Positions 3,820 to 61,438 of a DNA stretch of 64,000 nt are shown here, piece by piece (positions within the stretch are counted from its first letter, which is position 1; each line of letters opens with the position of its first letter). The position numbers were made by a program, and so were the translations under genes. Below the pieces are notes generated by a model that made no database searches, had not been told where the DNA came from, and saw only the letters and a list, made by a program, of their open reading frames with translations. This DNA comes from Polytrichum commune. Lineage: Eukaryota > Streptophyta > Polytrichopsida > Polytrichales > Polytrichaceae. The stretch is taken from assembly GCA_950295325.1 (NCBI GenBank), contig OX485809.1:20102144-20166143 (forward strand), given 5' to 3'.

Positions 3820-4761
3820 CTTTTGATAGCTAAATTCGTTGGCCTAAGCCCCTTCTTCAAGATCCGAAGTTGTGAGCCCAAACCCTAAATTAGGAGTTAA
3901 GGGGTAGCTCGTTGACATTGTGTAGAAATGTGGAGAAAATAGTTTTTTTCCTCATGGGGGATGACAAAGAGGCATTACATAATGCTCTAATGATGTCCCC
4001 CTTCAATCTAAATGAGGTATATGCATGCTCCAAAGCAGGTTACAAAGATTTAACCTTGATAACTCCAACAATCTCGCCTTCCCTACGTGGGTTGCATTTA
4101 GGATGCTATCATTTGAACACCATGATCAAGCGCTTGCCATTGCTAAAACATTGGGAGAGGTCATCAACATCGATATGGAAAACGAAACATCCCCTGATCC
4201 AAGATTTTGCACCAACCTTATGGTTAACAATGGGTGGGTAACAAAATTAAATCTAGAATGCAAGGATGGGATCTCACCACCCCAGAAGGTGTTGGTGGAC
4301 TACGATAGACTACCAATTAGATGAAGAGCATGCCACAACTAGAAGACAAAGTTAGTGAATGTGAGGAAATTTAGACAAAATCAAAGAGGGGGGCAAAAAA
4401 GCCACCACAAACATATCCTACACGACAACAAGTGAAAGATAAGGGCTTGACAATAGATCAGGATGGTTTTCAACATGTGAGAAATCGAAGAGGCATAAGA
4501 AGAAATATCTTCAATGAGGTGGATGATGAGCCGAGAAAACATGCGATGGAGCAAAGGGAGGCAACCAAGAAGTCAAAGAGGCGTTCCCATCTCTGGAACC
4601 AAAATGTGAACGAGGAACCAGAAGATAGGCGAGAGACGCAGCAAGGCCGAGGCAAGCCGAGTAAGTCAGCTAGCACCCCCAAGGTCGGCTCGGGGATCGC
4701 GGCAATCACAGTGCAAGCCAGTAGGGAAAGAAATGCAAGGACCCTAGAATCACAGATGTGA
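3820..4761 (+). pseudogene. LINE ORF1 remnant (DUF4283-like, nucleic-acid binding)
   Basis: Two frames share the signal. Residues such as GDDKEALHNALMMSPF (frame from 3,912) are followed by FPTWVAFRMLSFEHHDQALA (frame from 4,025), then DPRFCTNLMVNNGW and VLVDYDRLPIR. That is the usual order of the DUF4283 domain in plant LINE ORF1 proteins, which bind element RNA. A lysine/glutamate-rich linker (4,432-4,761) starts DKGLTIDQDGFQHVRNRR, typical of the segment after the zinc knuckle. The frame change between 3,912 and 4,025 and the stop after LPIR show the ORF is broken. The zinc knuckle itself is not seen. Confidence 0.7.
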
Positions 4762-5897
4762 CCACCAAACGGAGACAACTAATAGCAATAGGGTTTGTAG
4801 TAGAAGCAAAACATGCAAGCAAAGTCAGATCAAAAGGGAACCTTGGGATCGCAACTGCGACGAATAAAAAGAGGAATCAAACGGTTATGGGGAATGCAAC
4901 AAAAACAATGCATGTAGGCTAGGACATAAGTGAAAAGGACCCTGGAATCAAAATCATGGAAGGACAACAATTAACAGCAACTGAGGCAAGTGGAAGAGGT
5001 AAAGCAAGGGCATTCCAAGAAAAACAACCCTCCACAAAGGGGGAGAGGAAGCAATTGAGGCCACAGTAGGGAGCGACGACAACGGAAGACCAATACTACA
5101 TGAATCACTTAACAAAAACCAAATGCAATGGTCGCCAACGAAACTCGCTGGCCAAAAACGAGGGCCGGAGGAAGTGCCGCTAGCGGAAGCTGTAGAGGAA
5201 GAAGAAGCAGAGTTCAAAAAAAAAAAAGCAGTCGATACAGAGATGACACAACCAAAACAAGAAACAGCGCTAGCAGTATTGAAGTCTGGAGAGACGAAGG
5301 ACAAAGAAGACTAGGAGAGAACATCCAAGGCTCAGATAAGGCGGCAAAAAAATCGATGGACGGTGCGGGCTGTGGCACGAACAATGACCACAAGGCTAGC
5401 TGAGCAAAGGAGTGGCATGGGGATCAAAAAGGAGGCAAGGACTCTAGTGAAGGTGAGCTACGAGGTTGCCAAGAGGGGGCTGGCGGAGGTCAGGAGCAAG
5501 GAAAGGAGAGGGGAGCAACAACCTCTGTAGGGGTGAAGAAGGCGAAAGAGTCACAAGAAGCATGCAGGGGCCAGGCATCGAGAGGAACATTGGTCTTGAA
5601 GATGTCAGTTGGGCCAAGGCCACAGAGGGTCGGAACAGCTAGTCATTTCCTTGAAGGGGCACCGGAGCAGGAAGGTGCTCTGCACTGGATTCCCAATAGG
5701 GCATACCCCAGAAAGGGAAGCAATGAAAAAGATGGGAGGGGGGAAACAAGTCAAAAGGGTTAAAAATTTAAAGAAACAATTTACTCTAGGTTTGGGAATA
5801 AATCCCAAAGAATTGATAAGCAAGGGGAGGTAGCACCCGATTTTGAGATGGCGAGCAAAGAGGACTATGGCCAACAATCAGACATAACTTTTGCAAA

Positions 5898-8632
5898 ATG
5901 ATTCTCGAGGGGATTGACAGTGGGGCACTTCATGAGGGAATTACCCAGGGTCTTATTTGTTTGATTTCCAAGAAGGAGGACCCAAAGGACCTTAACTATT
6001 GTTGGCCAATTACTCTCCTAACGTTGATTTACAAAATGTATGCTAGAACCTTGCGCCTTAATTTCCAACCTTTGCTAAGTGATGTCATTGGCCCGGAGCA
6101 AGCTGCATTTTTACCTTTACGGTTTGGATAACATTGTATAGACCCAAGAAACCCTCCACTGGCCTAAGGCGTCTAGACAACTCACAATGTTCTTAAAACT
6201 AGATTTCTCAAGGGCATATGACAAAGTTTCTTGAAGGTTTTTATATCATGCAATATAAAATATGGAAATTAGTGAAGAGTATGTAGGATATATCAAATTT
6301 CTCTTTGGGAGTGCCTCCATCGTTGTTAATCTTAATGGCAACCCCGACAACATGTTTAAAATTGAGAGAGGTGTTAGGCAAAGTTGCTCATTTGCGCCAT
6401 ACCTCTTCCTCATAGTGGGGGAAGTCCTCACACAAATCATTAAGAAAGCGATGTCAAAGGGAAAATTAGAGGGATCTCTCTACCGGGGGAAATAAAACAA
6501 GAAAACATTGTGCAATATGCGGACGACTCGTCGTTCATGGTAAGAGGGGAGAAGCGGTATATTGACAAATTGGTATTTTTACTCAAAATCTTTAGTGAAG
6601 CCTCATGTACGAAGATTAATTGGGAAAATCATGCGTATAGTGGTTTGATAAGTATACACACAAGTCAGAGTGGCTTGCAGAGTACAACTGACAATGAATG
6701 AAGGAAGGAGACCTCTCGAAACTCCTAGGCACCCCATTTGGACTTAATCTCAATACACAAGATGTCAATCAACTCCTTTACGCCAAAATTTCCAAAAAAT
6801 TAGATTATTGGAGTACTATGAAACTTTTTTGGCAAGGAGGGTAGTCATTTGCAACCATGTGTTACTCTCAACCTTGTGTTTTTTTATCATGGTTTGGGGG
6901 GGCTCCAACAGAATATTGGAGAAAATTAGAGGCACCATCCACAACTACCTTTGGTCCGGAAAAGAACAATACATTCACACTAGAGTTCGTTGGAAAGAAT
7001 GTTGCATGAAAAAGAAATATGGTGGGTTGGGACTTGTTGATCTAGAGGCGGCCAAGACCAACCTTCTTTGTAAATGGATTGTGGGAGCAATGGAACTCAG
7101 AGAATCTAATCTCCAACTCATGCTAAGATGTAGATTGGCTAAATTCAACCCACAGAAAGATAAAAGTCGAGTAATTAATCTGGACTGGCTTACCAGTAAA
7201 CAACACCAAGGTTTCTCGGGATCAAAGGTTTGGGACCATATTAGTAAAGCCAGGAAGGTCATGGCAAAAGGTGCTTATCACTTTCCCCTCATTCGCGGAT
7301 GGAAATGTTGCACCCGAACATTTGGTGGTCCAATGGGGTGGAACTCATTAACAATGGATTCACCTACGACAAAGGCTTGGACCTTTATCGCAAGGGTATC
7401 CAATGTGTTGACGATGTGTGGGATAGTGAACAAGGGAATTTTCTTATGTGGGATAGAGCACAAGAAAAATTTAACCTCTCACCTACGGAGACTAGTTATT
7501 GGGCCACGCTCACGGACAAAATTTCTAGTAAGTGGTGCCACCTATTGGATGTTGACTCGGACACCACCCATTCAAGACAATGGATTGGTTTATACATTGA
7601 TGAAGGAGAACACCCTGCTTTCGGCCTACAATGCGTTCCCGATTTTGCTCCCACATGCATGCAACTTCATCACATCTCTATGCCCCTCCCAGTGCAATGC
7701 TCCATGGTAGGCACCCATTCTCGATGCCTCATGGAGTGGGAAAATCATGTAGGAGATATGTTTGGTTTCTTTCATGAGGTAAAAATCATTCATACCACCA
7801 AAGGCCCTAAAAGGGAAGGTGAAAAAGAAGAATTCACCTTCTTTTATGGGAAAACGGCCACTCTTGGTTCATCCTGGATCGGTGGCGATGGATGGATGGA
7901 TATTGATTTCTTATTTATACCACTAAGTTTGGTAGAAACTCCATCATCAATAGAAATCCGGGAACCATACATGCAGCGGACGAATGGCAAAGCTATCTAC
8001 CAGGCAATTAGAGGTTCTATTGGTCACAGGTGTGGGATCCGCTACAGTCAGGTAAAGAAGTTGCATTCATGTGGTCCATTTGGCACAAAGTGGTGGTAGT
8101 TAACAAATGGATTGCCCGCATTGCGCCGGCATCTATCTCCAAGCAATGTGTCTTTTGCCTCCCTAATACAAGCGAATCGGTCAAACACAAATTATGGGAT
8201 TGTATTCAAGTTAGGAGGGCATGGAGATGGGCCACCTTCATCATGCATGAGCTTTGTGAGGGTAGAACTGGCAACTATGATAGTTTTAATTGGAAGCAAG
8301 TTATTTTGGGGGAAATGATTCTTAAAAATTACAGTAAAAAGATCAAAATTTGGCACCTCCTTAGAGGCATCACACTTTGGAACACTTGGATTGAGAGCAA
8401 TGACAAAGTGTTTAATCATGAACAATGGCATGAGTCTAAGGTTAAGCACCGGATTTGGGATGAGCTCATCATTTATGCCAAGGCGGCATGGGAAAGGGTG
8501 ATCAAACAAATTAAGATTAGCATATTCTCCGCTACAGCCATGCTCCAAGGGTTTGACAAAACTTGGGGCGCTAGGAATGTCTTGTGGAGAAGGAACAATT
8601 TGCATATTGAGTGGAATTGGAAGCAACAATGA
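5898..8632 (+). pseudogene. LINE ORF2 remnant: reverse transcriptase and C-terminal zinc-finger region
   Basis: RT motifs appear in order: LICLISKKEDPKDLNYCWPI and KMYARTLRLNF (5,940-6,060), IGPEQAAFLP (about 6,090), then in another frame FLKLDFSRAYDKVSW (about 6,190-6,235), then GVRQSCSFAPYLF (6,370-6,410) and the catalytic QYADDSSFMV (6,510). From 6,808 the thumb region reads WGGSNRILEKIRGTIHNYLW and WKECCMKKKYGGLGLVDLEA, diagnostic of plant LINE polymerases. The zf-RVT-like end shows CVFCLPNTSESVKHKLWDC at about 8,140-8,200. At least four changes of frame are needed to read through, so no functional protein is made. Confidence 0.85.
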
Positions 8633-19461: not shown

Positions 19462-22400
19462 TTAATGTTCAGAAGACCCACGTCTTTGCTTCTGTCTGTG
19501 ATCCGTTTCTCTTTGTATTTTAAATCTGTCATGAAGTTCATCTAAAGTCGATCCTTGAACTCTCTTCTCCTCCCTGTCAACATCTCTATCTTTCTCCTTC
19601 CTGTGACAACTTCCTCGTGTCCCTCTTGACTTGTCATGCCTGCTATGAGATCTGCAACCATGTTGATGATCTTGACCCCTACTTTCTACAATAGTGTCAT
19701 CATCTACAACTTTAGAACTTTTCCTACTACTGATAATTCTAGAACCTGAAACAGTGTCTTTATTGTCAGGTACAGAGGATGTACCACTTGAGCTATCAGT
19801 ATGGCTCCTTCTGTGTCGGTGACCTTTATTTGACTTATGTGACTCAGATGTAGATCTCTTCTTGTCATGTTTATGACTTCGGTTTCTATGCCGGGATCTT
19901 TTTTCAGTTCTAGATTTTTCCTTACTGTCACTCTCATCACTGTCAGTAACGCTCCTTTGTTTCCGCTTCTTTCTTTTTTTCTTGCGATCTTCTTTCTTCC
20001 ATCTTCTTTCATCTACCCTCAATGCTGCAAGTTCCCTGCGCTGTTCCTCAGTAAGGGAGGCTAAAATGTTGGGCATTGCCAGATTGCCCCCTTCATCATC
20101 ATCACCATCACCACCTCCAGCAAGAAATCCTGAATACAATATTAAGGGTCCAGATTCTGTCATCCATCTCAAACCACATGCCTCAAACCGGACCAAACCT
20201 ACACTAATCTATTGAATCCACATAAAAACTTTGAAAAACCAGTCAACCAAGAACTTGAGGAACTCCAATTTACCTTCCAATCTAGGCTGGGTTGGGAATG
20301 GGATACCATTCCTCTGTATGCTACTTTAAATGATCCCTATTATCACATCACATACAAGTGGGTGGTGTCCCCGTTTCCCAACTTTAACTAAGGCTTGCCA
20401 CTTTATGTCTAGTTCCAATATCAATCTTCTTGATGTGAAGAGTACACCACACAATCCAGTGTGCTTGTAAAACTAAAGCAGGTCATATGCTGTACAGAGT
20501 CGTACCAAAGAAATTATGCAGAAAGCCACAATAACATGAAGCAAACATTTAGCCATTGCTGTGGTGACTGCATCCAAGTATTATTGAAATTACCAAATCG
20601 GTGATGGAGCTTATGTAGAATGTTGCAAAGAAAAAACACATTCAGGTTATCATGACGCTCACCTCCATATTCATCATAGATTTCCTCATCTGCAAGAATT
20701 TGCTGATTAGGGTCATCTTTTCTGAAGCCACCACGCGCTGGGCTCATAGCTCCAGGCTGCTGCTTCAGCTCCCACTTGAAAGGCTGCATATGCACTTCTA
20801 TTAGACAACCAAGGGGCCAGCATGCATCCTATGGTCAAACAAATTTCTTTCAAGCAAAAGATTAAATGCAAGATACTGCATCAGAAGACCTAAAATTAAG
20901 TCACAGCTTTAAATAAGACCATCTTTCAAAAGTCACCAGCTTAAACACTTGGGAGGTTTAAAAAGTAGCAGACCTCATCACTAGTAGCCTGTGCAATTAT
21001 GATGTTGAGTGGATCATTCCGTTTCAAGCGCTCAACCTCACTTGGTGTGATAACATCCTTAAGAGGACATTCACGATCTCCAGATTGATGCCCGAAAGCT
21101 CCACACTTTGCACATTTGACATTACGAATCTCAATTGCAAATGGCTTCACCCTTCCTGCAATACCAGTGTCCATCCTGCATAGAATAATAAGGTTAAAAC
21201 AATGCAAGCTGACATTGACTCCACATAGAGGCACACCTAAAGAGAAGACCTTTGTCTTCAGTTTCTGTCGAATACAAATATACAGCAGAGTTCCTAGAAA
21301 AATTAATATATTTTTTTTTTAAAATAATCCTCCCAATCATGTAGTCTGCAAGCACACAGGACAACGGACTTCCAACTATACCAAATTTCAACCAGGGTGT
21401 TGAAAATGGGGGAACTATACACCATGATCTCCTGAAGATGTACAAACTTTAAATCCAGAAGAACTACAGCCACATTCAGTTCAGAAACTTACTTGGGCGC
21501 ATCTTTCAAGGCTGGGAATTCTTCTTCTGTTGCTACATTCCGTCCAAAGACATCTTTCACTCGAGGCTTCCTTTTAACCTCTGCTTCACCTCCACCTGTT
21601 TCACTGCACAAGTAGCATAGGTTATCTACAAAAAGTTAATAACCTTGGAAAATGGTATCCACTTCTCTACATTCTTTGGATCTACACAAAGACTTGCACA
21701 ACCAGCATTGAGTCAGAATGATTTGTTTTCAAACTTTAGAATATTCAATGCCGAATTTAAAGATGCCACGTTAAGGATACATTATGACACAATGAAATTC
21801 TAATTGCCATCACAATCAGAGCATCTGTGAATATGAACTTGTTCACAAGTGTTTTTCAAATCATACTCCAAGAAATTGCTCAGATAGATACATTAACTGT
21901 TATTGAAAACTTTCCAGATGGAACCATCCAGAGACACAACTATATGCTCTCCAACTCTGAAGAAGTATACAAAGAGTATTACCAACAGTCTGGGTAAAGT
22001 ACCTCTGAGTAGCAACAGCAAGGGATGCATCTTGAGAAGAGCTAGGAGGTGCATCCAGACCTAACTTCTTCCTCTCATCTGCAATTTCAGCAGCTCGTGC
22101 ACTTTCCGCATTATAGCCAGGTGGACGCATATACATAAAACCCACTGCTTGCAATGCCTCCACCTGCATGGCACTTACTCCCATTAGCACCTCATTCAGA
22201 GATATTGCCAAAGAAGCAGCAATGAAATTAAATTGGTAGAAACAGTGCCTCAGCTATATAAACTCCTCCAATTGTCCTACAACATTAGCACTTGTGATTA
22301 CCACTGATGTTTGCAGTAATCCAGAATGACTTAAATTGATGCACTGACTTATCAAATTTATCTCAAAAAACCAATCCCACATTAGGTTAACCTCCTTCCT

Positions 22401-23906
22401 GTTTACACCCACCTCCAATCACCAAATAGCTTGACATTTACTTAGCTCGAAATGAGATATTAGCTTGAGACACTACCTCAACTATGATGACCAGTTCCAT
22501 AATATTCACGTAACTTTTTGATGGTCTACAGTTTCATTGGGCTCTTCATCACAGTGGAATGTGGAAAAGGTTGATACGCTTTGTGAGAGCCTTATTATTG
22601 CTAAAGATAGGTCACATTGAGTGGTAAGTAGAGAAAAGCATGAGAGGACAAAACACCTTCTCTTTCTCCCTTTTGGACATCTCTGCAGTCTGTCGAAAGA
22701 ATTCCTGCTCCTGTGCGAACTGAAAATGCCAAACAACCACCCTCAGAGTTTAGTACTCCACATGCTCACAAGAGAAAATAAATGCAATATGCTAACACCA
22801 GATGATGCAATGTGGTTAGACCAGCTGCACAAGTATATGCACTGACAAAATGGGGTGGCTTAAACTCAAGGCCTTAACCCGGATCCCATGGGAACTCCGA
22901 AGTTAAGCTGCCTAAGGATTTGATTGACCTTCCAGGCACTTGATTTCTGGTGCGCCCTACGACCTATGGTCTACCGAATCATAGTCAGGGCATTCGGATG
23001 AACTGGATTTTCGACCAACCATGTGGGAATCTAGGGGCTTGCCCATGGGGGTGATTAAGTGCAGGCCGTTGTCCGCACCCGCACGTGCACCTGTTCAAGG
23101 TGTTCCCCTTTGAAAGGAGGCATCCTTCTTTGACCGAGCTTCTAATTTCATGCCCATTCAGGAATTACATATAGACGAAGACCAACACGAAACATCATCA
23201 TTCGAGTCGAATAGTTGTTGCACCCTATCACCCATGGTCCACCCAATCATAGTAGGGGGTAATCAGGTGCACAAGATATTTTCAACCAACCCATGTGGAA
23301 CCTAGAGGTTTGCCCTTGGGGAGACTAGGTGAAGCTGGCTTGTCTGCACCTGTTCAAGGTGTTCACTTTTGAAAGGAAGTTGTAGTCTTCCGAGGGCTCT
23401 AATTCACGGGCTCTAATGCCCATTTCGGGTTCTTAGACCAACACAAAGATGAAGCAACAGCATAATTCGTGCCGGTGATCATCGGAATCATCATCGGAAT
23501 CATCTGTTCGTATTGACATCAATGCACCTCAAATATTTTGCGCAGGTGACAACATGGGAGTCATCTCTTCTTCTTGACGTCAGGCACCTCAATTGTAGTG
23601 ATCGACCCAAAAGAATAACACGAAAATCCGAGAGCGTCAAGCATTCCACAACAATGTGGCCGAAGTAGATTTGCACACAGAATTTGCCAACGAAGAATAC
23701 AAGAAAGGCAAGCACGTCGGATCCAATACCTCTCGGGCCACTTCGTCGGCTTTGCGGTCCTTCTGCGCAGTTTGCTGCTCGGCAATCCATTTGCGACGCT
23801 GATTGGGATATGAAAGCGGATGCCATGGCTTCTGATTAAGATATGAATGGCTCCACGCTGTACCCGACTTCTGCTTATACTCTACTTCCGCCTTAGTGTC
23901 CTTCAT
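19462..23906 (-). CDS. CIR1: CIR1-like protein (CBF1/RBPJ-interacting corepressor family, splicing-associated)
   Basis: I build seven coding exons: 23730-23906, 22657-22719, 22003-22163, 21493-21603, 20974-21175, 20663-20783, 19462-20129. They total 1,503 nt (500 aa), all GT-AG and in frame. An in-frame TGA four codons upstream supports the ATG at 23,906. The N-terminal CIR domain shows KPWHPLSYPNQRRKWIAEQQ (27-46) and FAQEQEFFRQTAEMSK. Next come GFMYMRPPGYNAES (about 88-101) and a CCHC zinc knuckle CAKCGAFGHQSGDREC (192-207) preceded by IRNVK, matching the animal CIR1 order. A C-terminal half rich in K, R, S and D with RS-like runs follows LTEEQRRELAALR. Animal CIR1 is a nuclear protein linked to transcriptional repression and to splicing; a nuclear RNA-processing role here is inferred. 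Intron 1 (22,720-23,729) hosts a 5S-headed repeat. A telo-box lies 380 bp upstream. Confidence 0.93.
22853..23475 (+). mobile_element. 5S-rRNA-headed retroelement, copy A plus headless tandem copy B
   Basis: Copy A starts exactly where a 5S rRNA would (GGGTGG, 22,853) and carries CGGATCCCATGGGAACTCCG then AAGTTAAGC, the conserved core of 5S rRNA. The head ends GGTGCGCCC at 22,957. An unrelated tail follows (ATGGTCTACCGAATCATAGT, GGGGCTTGCCC, CACCTGTTCAAGGTGTTC) to about 23,210. Copy B (23,214-23,475) starts at GTTGCACCC, the 5S 3' terminus, and repeats the tail. It sits in intron 1 of the CIR1-like gene, antisense to it. The family could be a SINE3-type (5S-derived) SINE or a decayed Cassandra-type TRIM. 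The shared start at the 5S 5' end favours the SINE. Old, worn copies. Confidence 0.75.
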
Positions 23907-24399
23907 TTCTCCTTCACCTCAAACCTCCAACCCCAAACCCCAAAACCCTCGTCACTTCGCTCAACAACAACAGCTGACATGTACAAAAGCTTCCGCAGCA
24001 TCACAACATCCTCCTTGTAGCTCCTCCGGGTACATCGATGCACAAAACACCCCAACTTACCGATACGCTACTCATCCTGTTACTAATCAACTAAACCAAT
24101 CCATCCAACCCTAGCCATGGCAGAGCACTCCTTTTGTAAGTCTTGCGGGTCAATCAACACATAAAGTAGCCTCCTAATGCACCAACAAGATGCTCCTGCT
24201 GCTGATAATACATTCCCGAATAGGTATCTGGAATGCTTCTGTGTGAATTGGGAGGAATCGTGGGCGATGATGAGTCCTCAAGAATTAGGGTTTCCTGTAT
24301 GATGAAATTCGGAACATGGAGAGAAACCCACATTGAGCTTTTTGTGTCCTTGGAGCTCTTGTGGGTGTCTTAAGAGTATGTCCTACAATCCCAGTAAAA
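23907..24399 (-). promoter_or_regulatory. Upstream region of the CIR1-like gene
   Basis: No coding exon. On the gene's strand this is its 5' untranslated region and proximal promoter. It contains a telo-box (24,285-24,293) and then meets the 135-bp satellite array at about 24,400. Confidence 0.5.
24285..24293 (-). promoter_or_regulatory. Telo-box (AAACCCTAA)
   Basis: The plus strand reads TTAGGGTTT, so in the CIR1-like gene's orientation it is AAACCCTAA, 379 bp before the ATG. Telo-boxes are known in plant promoters of translation and RNA-processing genes. That this one acts is inferred from position only. Confidence 0.4.
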
Positions 24400-25240
24400 T
24401 GACTTTACTAGTATGGGCCCATGCCATCTTGGCCCTTTGCCCATGTACATATGACACAACACTCCCCCCACCTTTTCACAACGGTGGGGAACGGTGTGTT
24501 AATGGCCTCACCACCACCACCACATTATTCATTATATATAGACTAGGACGAGTCCATGTAGTCCCAGCCCTTTGCACTTGTATATATGACACATCACTCC
24601 CCCCACCTTTTCACAACAGTGGGAACGGTGTGTTGACGGCCACGCCACCACCACCACGTTATTCATTATATATAAATTAGTACGAGCCCATGTAGTCCCA
24701 GCCCTTTGCACTTGTATATATGACACATCACTCCCCCCACCTTTTCACAACAGTGGGGAATGGTGTGTTCACGGCCACGCCATCACCATCACGTTATTCA
24801 TTATATATAAATTAGTACAAGCCCATGTAGTCCCAGCCCTTTGCACTTGTATATATGACACATCACTCCCCCCACCTTTTCACAACAGTGGGGAACGGTG
24901 TGTTGACGGCCTCGCCACCACCAACACGTTATTCATTGTATATAGACTAGTACGAGCCCATGCAGTCCCAGCCCTCTACACTTGTATATATGACACATCA
25001 CTCCCCCCACCTTTTCGCAACAGTGAGGAACGGTGTGTTCACGGCCTCGCCACCACCACCATGTTATTCATTGTATATAGACTAGTACGAGCCCATGCAG
25101 TCCCAACCCTTTGCACTTGTACATATGACACATCATTCCCCCACTTCTCCAAAACAATGAAGAACAATAAAAAAAAAACTCACAAGAAACAGCGGGGTGA
25201 TGGCCACACAACCATCACCATCACCACGTTCACCATTGTA
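24400..25240. repeat. 135-bp satellite array, about six units
   Basis: The word (C)AGCCCTTTGCAC starts at about 24,430, then 24,565, 24,699, 24,834, 24,969 and 25,104, a steady 134-135-bp period. Each unit holds TATATATGACACATCACTCC, a CCCCCCACCTTTTCACAAC block and a CCA-triplet stretch (CCACCACCACCAC). Inner units are close to identical, while the first and last are more diverged, as expected from unequal exchange. ORFs reading through it (for example 24,333-24,680) are by-products of the period being a multiple of three. Confidence 0.92.
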
Positions 25241-26019
25241 GATAGATTCTTCTCTTTATTGGCTTTCAAAACTTATCGCTCATCCAATAGCAGAGAGGAT
25301 ATCATAACTCGTCGATTTTTTTTATCATCCATGGATGCATGATCTCATTCGTAGTTCTCATATCATGTCCACGCTCTTATTAGTTAATATGGACTAGACA
25401 ACCAACGAGAAGGGAATGGAAGTCGATTATTAGTCATAACCAATAACTTCATGGTTGAAATTTGGGTATTTTGGATGAAATTGATGCTCCATGGATGTAG
25501 CATTATGACAAGTTATGATAACTCTTATGCTTTTGGATGAGTGATCACTTATGATTAATAGCCGACTCTAGTAGTTGGAAGACTTGTTGTGGGATCAATT
25601 TGTCATCCATTCTCCTCTTGCTTGGTATATAAGGTAGATGTGCCTAATTTGGTGCCTCTTCTTCAATGGACACCTATATTTGAGTGGTGAATGGTTGTGT
25701 GCGGATCTAAAAAACAAACACCAAGAAGACATGTGTTGAATTGAGATTGGACTACATGCTCTAGATTTATCAACCATCTAGACACAACAATCAACATAAC
25801 ATGGGGGTCCTACATGATCATTTTACATCTCGGAGAATCTTCACTTTGACAATGAATAGGTTATTCATTGTGAACTCCAAAAATTATGAGGAAAGTGGCT
25901 ATGGACATAATTTGCATTTGCTAATCATCTTGCGCTAATCGTATTTTCCATTCAAATCTCACTTATCTTAGTCCAAAGACTTTCGGACCATTCTTGCGTG
26001 CTCGTCCCACCTGTAATCG

Positions 26020-26063
<44 letters not shown>

Positions 26064-28000
26064 TTGATTCCATGTTGAGATAGAAAGACAACAATGAGGG
26101 CAAGATGCCCACCTCTTTTAATTGAGCCCCACCACCATTACCAAGGTAAAGGAGGTTGAGTGTAAATTGCAAAGTGTAAAACACACGGCAATTCACCTAG
26201 TGTAAAATGTTGCATAGACGTGCAATATCCAACATATTTTAAGGGGACAATTGATTTTGTGGGCATACATTTGAGGACCCTATAAATACATAATATTGGA
26301 ATTCATGCCTTCTGATGGGATGGTATGTTAATCTTAGATGTGAAGAACTTTTATATCCATAACTGTATATTTATCTTAAGAAATTGAAAACTTCGAAAGT
26401 GAACTAGAAGTAATAGAGCATTTTTCAAGATTCCAATACACAAAAACACAGCAATTAAAATTGCTTTTAGTATACATTTATTGATGAGATGTAGTGTAAA
26501 TCAAGTGACCATGAAAGGCATGCATAACATTTCCTTAAGATGACAACTAAGGTTCCAGAATTACTTCAATATTTCAAAGCAACAAAAGGAAGGGCAACCT
26601 CAAATTTGAGAGGTCCATGTGCAATATCTTCTATCAATCTATGATATCTATATCCTCGAATTTCATCAATGGCGAATGACTAGTTTGACTCTATCCTTGG
26701 TAGATGACATTAGGGTAAATCATTTAGTCTAAAACCAAGAAACGCTCACAAATCGGAGAATAATCAAATCTATTGTATTTGGCAATTTAGATCAAACCTA
26801 ATGACATGATTAAGCCAACTAGAGAACGATTGTTGAGAAAATCTATTTGGCCAGAGGATTTACCCTAAACCAACTTCAAAACAATCAAGAAATAAGCATC
26901 CATGCTTCCTCCTCACACAACAAGTTCCTAAATTCAAATTCAAAGCATTTCAAAGGGAAAAAAAAGATATGGTACTCACAACCTCACGTGACCACGCCAC
27001 TACGCCACACTCAAAACTTGTACACACCCTTTTTAGCCACACAACACATGAGAGAGAGGGGATGGAAATGAGCAACCCATTAGGGTTTTAGGAAGGTTAT
27101 TCCTCCTTCCCTAAGAGTTTCCTCAACGGATGAAATATTGAGTATTCTCAATGAAATTAATTTCATTATTTGGGTTGACGGGATAGAGATCATTCTTATT
27201 AGGCAAATCACACAAGGTCTCCCCAAGTGTTTACAACAATTTGGCATTTGTTGGTATTTTTCAAAAAACTAGTCCCAACAAACTCTTGATTTTCCTCTTG
27301 GGATATTTTTTCACATATGTTACACATAACTTTCTTAAATCACCTAATAACTAGTAGGCTAAGTTTCTTTAACCTAAGTATTAGGTATAAAGGCCATCCT
27401 TCGCTAATTATAACTTTGTTATATTTGTTCCTTTCAATAAATATTTGTCACCCTATGTTATATTCCACCCCTTTTTGGAAAATATTGGAAGTGAGCCCCC
27501 CAAGTAAAACATGACCCCAGATGTTTGTGATATATTCATCTCAATTGGGTCCATCTAGATTGATTATGGGTCTCTGATACTAATTTTAGAATAAAATTGT
27601 GTGTATTACATGGCAAATAACCAGAGATGCTACTCTAACCCTTGACACTCCTCATGTAACTCAAAACCTGGGTATGGGCACCGGACCTAGTGCTTTCCAT
27701 ATGCAAGGTCCACAAAGCATGATACTTTCACCAAAAGTAACTTAGAAACCTTCATTTCTTTCGAAGAAATCATTCATCTTGAAGACTCAGTACACCAAAT
27801 CCCAGGATTTATTTCGTAGACTCCGGCTGCTATGCTTCCAGGTTCAATACCGTGGTCGGTGAGCTCTGCAATCGAACAATAGCGCAGTCGACACACAGGG
27901 AGTAGGTAAGTACTTACATAGCTCCTACAAATCACCAACTCAAACAAACAATTGCACCTATTGGGGGTCCGGACGATATGGACGATCTGCTCTTCATTGG
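25241..28000. other. Intergenic, with (TA)n(GA)n microsatellite
   Basis: No gene recognised. A microsatellite (TA then GA) runs from 26,020 to 26,060. A TTAGGGTTT telo-box occurs at 27,080-27,088, about 1 kb before the likely 5' leader of the RNF170-like gene. Confidence 0.6.
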
Positions 28001-35260: not shown

Positions 35261-36064
35261 TGACCCATCTCTATATGAGATGTTGCCCTATTGTCACAAA
35301 TTTACCGAACCTTGGGTCTTTTCCAGGTCTTATAATTGTTGATATATAACACTCCCACTGTGTTCTCATTTCTAGATTTCACAAGCAGCTCATTGATAAA
35401 GGGATTCTTTGTCACACAATATGTCAACAGGATTATAGGCAAGCAGATTTGACAATTGATGAAAGTATCACCCTTGGTTGATGAGGGTTTCCTGTTACAG
35501 TTCTGTACAACATAGTGATTCAGAACTTGTTGATGGTGATGATGGTAGTCCATCAAATCTTGTTGTTTCCACTTTTCAAGTGCAACAACGCCAACAAGGG
35601 GAACAGAGAGAGATGATAATCACAGCGGTCAATCTTAGCTCTGGGATATATGCAATATTCCATCTTGCTTCTTCTAGATTTAACTGCCTGCTGTATTTTC
35701 AACATCTAGTGTAGAGTATATATAGGAGTAAATGTAGAGTAAACGGTTCATTATTTGCATGTTATGGTTTGCCTTTCCTTCAATGAAGGTAGTAGCCCTT
35801 CTGGCAATTAGGCACTTCTCCTGTCACACTTCATCCTGGCATTTTTATTCATGGTACTTGTTGATTCATTCATCGTTATTATAGTGTTTATGTGAATGAG
35901 CTGTTGGCAATAATGTGAACGTGCCTTACTTGCATGTAGTGGAATCTGTTAGTGGGTATAGAGCAATTATGAGGAGCTTCCAGTTCAAGGTGAAAGCCAA
36001 GTCACCGTCAAGGAACCCACCATGAAAGAAAGAAAAGAAAGATGATTTTGATGTTGCCACTGGT
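35261..36064. other. Spacer after the TNL pseudogene
   Basis: No recognised gene. A short plus-strand ORF (35,478-35,714) has no domain; it may be an eroded 3' exon of the resistance gene. Confidence 0.4.
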
Positions 36065-36434
36065 TTGAATCATGGTGTTGCTTCATTTTTTGAGTTGCTC
36101 CAAGTCTATGTGTAATCCCAAAACGGGCAATACGAGAATTAGAAGAGGGCCCCCAAAGACTAATGCCTCTTTCTGGAGGTGAGCACCTTGAACAGGTGTG
36201 AACAAGTCAGCTTGCACCTATCTCCCCTAAGGGCAAGCCCCTAGGTTCCCCTTTGATTGAAAATATCCAGTTCACATGGATACCCCCACTATGATTAGGT
36301 AGACCATAGATGGTAGGGTGCATGAGATTTGGTGTGCGAGGGAGCTCACCCATCCGAGTACTACTTTGACTGTAGGCAGCTTAACCTCGGAGTTCCCATA
36401 GGATCTAGGTTAAGGCCTTGGGTTTAAGCTACCC
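36065..36434 (-). mobile_element. 5S-rRNA-headed retroelement, copy C (complete head)
   Basis: Read on the minus strand, the head runs 36,434 to 36,316 (119 nt, against about 120 for 5S rRNA). It keeps the 5S core GATCCTATGGGAACTCCG, GTTAAGCTGCCTA, then AGTAGTACTCGGATGGGTGA, the internal control region that TFIIIA/Pol III uses, and ends TGCACCC. The tail (36,315 to about 36,065) matches copies A and B: TATGGTCTACCTAATCATAG, AGGGGCTTGCCC, CACCTGTTCAAGGTGCTCAC. No LTR pair is seen. The three copies share a head-plus-tail architecture, so this is a dispersed family rather than a stray 5S pseudogene. Confidence 0.8.
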
Positions 36435-36591
36435 ATAACCGCCATGAATGTTAAGGGTCAACTCGCTTTGGGTCCTGGGAACAATTAGGAATTAAGACAA
36501 ATTGCTTGTTTGATTTTGACCATCACTAAAGAAAGAATGAACATTAATGTAAACGACATACATATGTATTATATATATGATGTATGTTAAC

Positions 36592-59442: not shown

Positions 59443-61438
59443 CGCTACACCGTACTCTACAACCAAAGAGAGTGAGAGTGAGAGAGAGAACGAGGGACCT
59501 ACAAGCACTTTGGCAACATTTCACTACGGTCGATGTGACTAAAACCAACACCCTCAAATTTTGCACAATAAATACATATTGATTCTGAGAATGTTTACCA
59601 CCTTAACATTAACAGGTTGGCGTGTTGGTTTTGGATACGGATTTCAAATAAGACATACTTTGGTGCGTTGAAATCTTTGTCGAATGCTTATGAGAACCAC
59701 TTACAACTTTTTGAATCTAACAATAGTAGCTCTGCTCAGCCTTTAAAGTGTTGGTTTTAGCACCTTTTATATACAATGGGACTTTCCGCCGGGAGCTAGT
59801 CCCCTATGATTTTCCATTGATTGATTTGCATACACTATCAATCATTTTTTTCCACTTGTACTGGTGCATGCTCGGCAGTAGTGTTTGAAATTGAATGAAG
59901 AGCAATTTATTCCGTGAGGTTCATTGAGGGCCAAACTCATTTTAGCACCTCTTGATTGCATGCCAAAATGAGTCTCACCCTCAGTGAACCCATATAAAAG
60001 TTTCCTAGTTCAAAACCTCTCCGAGCATGGAAGATGTTGGAAGTATGCCCAAAACCAACTCACGACCAAAAGTCACGTTGAGCTTGGGGGTAACTCTATT
60101 GTCTACATTACTCTACCTACCGAGCCCGGAGTCTAATGGAAGTTAACCATCCAGTAGCTTTATTTAATGCAACTACATCAACATGTCAAACTCATTAGGG
60201 AGGCCAACGCAAAGACTCTGAGTATTATGAACTACTGAGTTATGTACTGGTTTTAGGCTCAGTAGTTCGTAATAGTCAGAGTCTTTGCGTTAGCCTCCCT
60301 AATGTGTGTGTGTGTGTGTGTATTTCAAGAGCTCGAGTGATTACAAAATGACATACAGAGGTTGCAAAACAAAACTCCAGCCACAGACCTTGCTCACAAA
60401 ATCCCGTTTATCACTTAGATTTGCCATCAATTGATGTAAGACACAGATCCAGGAGCACAAGCAACGCGATGGAGCCCATGCAAACCCGATCGAGCAAAAT
60501 TTTCCAGATGCTGCAAAAAGAAGAAAAGAACTCGAGAACCGCTTAAACCCCAGACGTGTAACACGACCTTGCAAACACAACAGAATTGCACGAGAAGAGG
60601 CTCGTTTGGAAGCTGGCAACACGGAGTTTGAGATGGCCAGGTAGAGGTGCATACTTGGGAGTCCGGTGCGATGGTCGGGGTCCGCGATCAGAGCTCCTGC
60701 TCCTTCGACAAGAATTTGATAAACCTAGATTCATGAGACACACAAACAAATGTGCCAGTCCCTCTAACCCTAAAACCCAGTTCGCCGTCACCGTTTTCAC
60801 CGTTCGCCGTTCACCGTTCACCGTTATTCCGTCCGCCGTTCGCAGGTACGTTCTAGAATCTAGACCGGGTATGTAAGGGGATGCATGGCATCCGTATTCA
60901 ACAACAATAATGGTACTAGCAAAGAACCTCCACGTGGGTATCAAAATTGAAATACATGTTAAATAATGATTTTTGGTGGGTATCTCAAGGCGGACATTAA
61001 GTTCCCCCCTATGAACTATGGGGCATGTCAGATACAGGCGGGGCAGCCTCCAGTGAAATTTCTGAACCGGACTGAAAATTGTTGCCCAACTGAGAAAAAA
61101 ATATTGCCCTTGCATTTTTGAAGGCCGCTTGACTACAAATCCCATATTGACTGCACTTCACCTGCAAGGTCTAAAATCCAATATATATGTGCACTTCCAA
61201 CTAGAAAATAAGCAATCCATTGGGATTCCATTCCGGAAGTGAAACCACCAATGAAGCACGTAATTAACTTGGAGGTTATAATTTTTATGACTTACCATTT
61301 GAAATTGTCTTTGTCATTCTAAAATGACACTTAAATTTAGTGTGTTGATTTAGTATGTATATTTTATAATATTTTAGTAATGCCGTCTACTTTCACAAGT
61401 ATTCATATACAGAAACATAATTTGGGTCTTGTACTTAC
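59443..61438. other. Upstream of mEF-G1; CCGTT-rich stretch and hairpin
   Basis: No gene recognised. The first few hundred bases are the mEF-G1 leader and promoter, with a CT/AG-rich run at 59,468-59,492. Within 60,789-60,845 the word CCGTT (or CCGTC) occurs about seven times. A (GT)n microsatellite follows the hairpin at 60,304-60,322. TTCTAGAATCTAGA at 60,850 resembles a heat-shock element but may be chance. Confidence 0.5.
60193..60304. repeat. Near-perfect inverted repeat, 47-bp arms, 18-bp loop
   Basis: Left arm 60,193-60,239 begins CATTAGGGAGGC and ends ACTACTGAG. Right arm 60,258-60,304 is its reverse complement at 44 of 47 positions, and one of the three differences would be a G-U pair in RNA. 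The loop is 60,240-60,257. The fold has the size of a plant microRNA precursor or a tiny fold-back transposon. A clean target duplication is not visible. Confidence 0.9.

Follow-up and report, generated by a model that had tools for sequence, protein, structure and literature searches.

A putative 5S rRNA-headed repeat family in a 64-kb window of Polytrichum commune DNA, with two adjoining copies antisense in a predicted intron of a CIR1-like gene

The window analyzed here, meaning the whole 64,000-nucleotide stretch of Polytrichum commune DNA under study, carries a CIR1-like gene on its minus strand, a predicted intron of which holds two adjoining copies (A and B) of a short dispersed repeat. 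A third copy (C) lies elsewhere in the window. The intron and the copies are summarized below, one feature per line.

22720-23729, minus strand: intron of the CIR1-like gene holding A and B, predicted from reading frames and GT/AG sites; 1010 bp
22853-23212, plus strand: copy A, a 5S-like head followed by a tail
22853..22914, plus strand: 5' half of the copy A head, 56/62 identical to C
22915..22960, plus strand: 3' half of the copy A head, diverged, 14 alignment columns shorter than C
22961..23212, plus strand: tail of copy A, 171/239 identical to C and 156/230 to B over the aligned tail
about 23211-23494, plus strand: copy B, a tail without the 5S head (blastn B-C, E 4e-34)
36434-36039, minus strand: copy C, a complete-looking element, matched by the profile over 36434-36039
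36039..36434, minus strand: make-up of copy C, about 120 nt of 5S-like head followed by the tail

The predicted splice sites of the intron, read on the minus strand with a slash at the boundary, are GAGAG/GTATTG and TTTTCAG/TTCGCA, and the flanking exons are one encoding a Cir_N domain (Pfam E 2.4e-11) and one reading FAQEQEFFRQT. Copies A and B together (22853-23494) take up 642 of the 1010 bases (64% of the predicted intron) in antisense orientation. A preliminary description, made from the letters of this DNA, had placed them antisense in an intron of the CIR1-like gene, and this placement is borne out by the reading frames, the GT/AG sites and the Cir_N domain from which the intron is predicted. 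A tandem array with a 135-bp unit (5.3 copies, 24432-25142) is also present near the 5' side of the same gene.

Copies A, B and C are one repeat family. Pairwise blastn comparisons within the window gave 69% identity for A-C (E 8e-36), 71.7% for B-C (E 4e-34), and 72% for A-B (E 7e-18). When a profile of the three copies was run against the window, five rows were returned, namely A, B, and C and two others at E 4.7 and 7; no fourth copy was thus found in the 64-kb window by the profile, and the only relatives of each copy there are the other two. The sample accordingly comprises two insertions (A+B, and C) and two headed copies (A and C), all within one window. Searches of viral and prokaryote collections were without a match for C (blastn at distant settings, against plasmids), for four DNA patterns of the family (viral_contigs), and for two patterns (genome_contigs); given the content of these collections, the lack of matches says little about plants. 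Two matches of CACCTGTTCAAGGTGYTC in viral_contigs were rejected as chance, their likeness to the profile being limited to 23-24 bases around the pattern.

The make-up of the copies largely follows the preliminary description, which had copy A begin with the 5' end and core of 5S and continue into an unlike tail; both blastn and an Rfam alignment agree with this. The 5S core of A (22879-22908) is identical at 28/30 positions to angiosperm 5S (blastn in the window, E 7e-8), and copy C gives a longer match (36405-36341, 50/65, E 6e-9), the reference in each case being an angiosperm 5S rRNA sequence, which may differ from the 5S of the host itself. Copy B was said to start at the last bases of 5S and to repeat the tail within 22853-23475; it does start at these bases (TTGCACCC) and does repeat the tail, but its end lies at 23494, beyond 23475. 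Copy C, previously named without a position, can now be placed at 36434-36039 on the minus strand. The whole Rfam 5S_rRNA model can be aligned to A (22851-22960), at 20.2 bits against a gathering threshold of 38 (E 0.21, 901-base stretch). The 5S of copy A was not among the matches of a whole-window Rfam scan at E up to 1, and the 5S model found no match on copy C at E up to 10. The weak score in A and the lack of a match in C indicate that the 5S fold is poorly kept.

A comparison of the two heads with one another is more informative about their origin. Over head bases 1-62, the differences between A and C amount to 6 transitions, with no transversions and no gaps (56/62 identical; K2P 0.108). 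Within the first 26 bases 24 agree, and 14 of the 26 are the same in both copies and unlike the angiosperm 5S; the following 36 bases add 6 further positions of this kind, for 20 in the first 62. Such shared changes argue for one derived source over independent 5S pseudogenes, and, judged from the alignment, the head of A and C is a shared derived module, although some of these changes from the angiosperm 5S could represent host-specific 5S sequence. The 3' half of the head is considerably less alike, with 25/44 aligned bases identical (19 differ) and 14 gap columns. Copy A is without the stretch that reads AGTAGTACTCGG in C, where it matches the IE and the first bases of the C-box. The C-box region retains 14/18 bases in copy C, and the Pol III promoter appears to be damaged in copy A, with part of it lost.

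With the boundary placed at base 62, a cut chosen post hoc from the alignment, the head is 90% and the tail 71.5% identical between A and C (6/62 vs 68/239 differences, Fisher p 0.0016); for head versus all the rest, Fisher p was 0.0004. Both (i) a recent head on older tails, brought about by template switching between subfamilies, and (ii) constraint on the 5' half would fit this pattern. It is important to note that the half carrying the C-box is the diverged half in A, and constraint on the Pol III promoter alone therefore does not explain the conservation of bases 1-62.

The tail, common to A, B, and C, extends for about 275 bp directly 3' of the head (B vs C, 191/262 identical over the aligned tail), and K2P distances between tails are 0.425 (A-B), 0.368 (A-C), and 0.350 (B-C). 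TTTT, a minimal Pol III terminator, is present in all three tails about 50 bases beyond the head and in the same context (GGATTTTC, GATATTTTC, and GATATTTTC). The longest run that is invariant in the three tails (22961-23494, 36039-36314) is CACCTGTTCAAGGTG, of 15 columns (column shuffles, p 0.00055, post hoc), which could form a short hairpin. RNA folding of C was no better than that of its shuffles (z -0.78), and in a consensus fold of the three tails 2/56 pairs were changed on both sides, the covariation term adding energy; given these two results, we make no claim of RNA structure. The copies have no A-rich tail. In comparisons confined to the window, blastn and the profile gave no match between the tail and the LINE-like region (about 3.9-8.8 kb), nor any match to the tail elsewhere outside A, B, and C.

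The ends of the copies bear most directly on how the family may have spread. The starts of A (22853) and C (36434) coincide with the start of 5S, as had been reported earlier (2/2 headed copies), and the two copies are alignable from the first 5S base and not upstream of it. At the other end, the likeness of B and C breaks off at a common point, in AATCATC. Copy C is bordered by a candidate target-site duplication, as follows.

36439..36448, minus strand: 5' copy of the candidate target-site duplication at C, TTCATGGCGG
36017..36026, minus strand: 3' copy of the candidate target-site duplication at C, TTCATGGTGG

The two sides agree at 9/10 positions over 10 bp, with p 0.007 in an ungapped, 5'-anchored test and p 0.054 in a gapped local alignment; random windows of the same strand served as controls for all duplication p values, and seven tests were performed in all. 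With A+B treated as a single insertion, p was 0.025 (gapped) and 0.14 (anchored), the right-hand match starting at 23547, 52 bases past the end of homology. B alone gave p 0.44. Taken together, the duplications around C and A+B are suggestive and no more. No duplication was found for A taken as an insertion of its own with its end at the A/B joint (p 0.84 gapped, 0.98 anchored), and this reading was rejected, as was an ATGCAC.. duplication around A+B picked by eye, which was not the best match in either test.

Copies A and B abut as direct repeats at a spacing of 268, with no internal region between them. A later in-place duplication of A giving rise to B is disfavoured, their tails (K2P 0.425) being as distant from each other as those of A and C or of B and C. 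Two readings of A+B are proposed, namely a putative dimer and a full copy next to one truncated at its 5' end.

Considering head, tail, and ends together, A, B, and C probably represent a SINE3-type dispersed non-autonomous retroposon, to judge by sequence features. The proposed life cycle would run as follows: a derived 5S rRNA gene of about 120 nt would form the 5' end, with RNA polymerase III starting at the first base from an internal promoter; Pol III would read on through the tail of about 275 nt; a LINE reverse transcriptase would recognise the 3' end of the tail; and target-primed reverse transcription would insert the copy and thereby duplicate about 10 bp of the target. On this scheme, A+B would have come from a single insertion of a dimeric (head-tail-tail) transcript, or would consist of a full copy beside a 5'-truncated one. 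Pol III transcription and a LINE partner are both inferred parts of this scheme. The fuller proposal, a plant SINE3 family that is 5S-headed, moved by a LINE, has a dimeric form, and whose heads stay more alike than its tails, is put forward tentatively, its chances being in our estimation slightly under even. The suggestion in the preliminary description that the 5S starts suit a SINE thus gains from the ends at the 5S start, the common tail, the shared 3' end of B and C, the duplication candidate at C, and the absence of the LTR signs looked for, and is, with two insertions, partly supported. Against a SINE stand TTTT in 3/3 tails, the loss of promoter in A, the lack of an A-rich tail, and the lack of a match to the LINE-like region.

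The alternative that survives best, while still unlikely, is that the copies are decayed, mosaic, or solo LTRs of a Cassandra TRIM or of another 5S-promoter LTR element of the TRIMp3 group, in which case the 5S-headed stretch would correspond to everything in the LTR from its transcription start on. In plants, the known carrier of 5S sequence is Cassandra (PMC10853983), A and B are direct repeats, and a difference in U3 between two copies could cause the 5S start to mimic an end. However, the same paper gives, for 81 Cassandras, a 5S region that is never at the LTR termini and lies within 25-75% of LTR positions (PMC10853983), whereas here it is at the 5' end of the shared sequence in 2/2 headed copies. 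Moreover, A and B abut at their spacing of 268 with no internal region, and B is without 5S. No LTR pair was found in the window, where C is without a partner. A Met-type primer pattern (TGGTATCAGAGC) at up to 2 mismatches matched the window twice (27571 and 63393) against 2.4 expected, and neither match is near a copy. TG..CA ends with an exact 5-bp duplication were represented by 0 pairs in the three ranges tried, a search that mutated ends would escape, and the duplication candidate at C is 10 bp, not 5. A Cassandra TRIM is similar to the family described here in being a plant retroelement with 5S sequence, thought to be its Pol III promoter, and differs in having its 5S inside paired LTRs and a Met primer site; the family here has a terminal 5S, and neither LTR pair nor primer site was found. 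Ajax and Helenus (TRIMp3) are similarly non-autonomous retroelements with a captured small-RNA promoter, but they are LTR elements whose duplications measure 5 or 4 bp, and Ajax has been described from two nemerteans (PMC10886601).

It is decidedly unlikely that the copies are instead dispersed fragments of 5S rDNA units (the gene plus downstream spacer) that belong to no mobile family and were spread through recombination or when read-through transcripts happened to be retroposed, A+B then being two units from which the second 5S gene was deleted. A length of about 400 bp and the tandem of tails in A-B would both fit a 5S repeat unit, but 20/62 of the first positions are changed alike in A and C from the angiosperm 5S, which argues against independent copies of working genes, and no T-run directly follows the head. 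It is very improbable that the copies travelled with a DNA transposon or some other repeat that captured a 5S copy once and spread by another route. The small number of insertions (two) and the other transposon remains in the window would favour this, but no inverted repeats were found at the copy ends in a search of 20500-26500, and the 5' ends of A and C both coincide exactly with the start of 5S.

Returning to the SINE3-type reading, tRNA-headed plant SINEs (SINE2) are short non-autonomous plant retroposons and in this respect resemble the family here, from which they differ in that its head is 5S; ARAGORN found no tRNA in the window. SINE3 of vertebrates and some insects shares with the family a 5S-derived 5' head, an unrelated tail, non-coding content, and short dispersed copies; the plant host and the TTTT in the tail set the family apart, as judged from two insertions. 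A 2020 hagfish paper names vertebrates and some insects as hosts of SINE3 (PMC7245038), and 5S-related SINEs are reported from Aspergillus fumigatus (PMC5063351). A literature search by titles and abstract openings, covering openly accessible papers, found no 5S-headed SINE from a plant. Elements with a 5S head are known from animals and a plant example would be unusual; two insertions are too few to serve as proof. It has been speculated that insertion of a SINE3 in an LTR gave Cassandra its 5S promoter (PMC10886601). If the present reading is true, the family here would be an element of the sort that, on this speculation, supplied Cassandra with its promoter; a plant SINE3 would make the SINE3 origin of Cassandra testable and would mean that 5S promoters had been captured by two kinds of plant retroelement.

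Several other features were observed in the window. Broken LINE-like frames with residues resembling reverse transcriptase by eye extend over 3894-8632, where Pfam searches of five frames gave one sub-cut-off match. A long frame at 39457-40629 matches DDE_Tnp_4 (E 1.1e-32) and is presumably a Harbinger-type transposase. Two adjoining tandem repeats, one with 1.9 copies of a 382-bp unit and the other with 3.0 copies of a 190-bp unit, lie at 419-1724, and a nearly perfect long hairpin at 60199-60298, with weak Rfam miRNA matches (E 0.31 and 0.2), looks like a small inverted-repeat element. Pfam searches of 20 reading frames from the window gave matches for 8/10 in one set and 0/10 in the other, and searches of solved structures with window proteins confirmed RRP45-like and TIR relatives.
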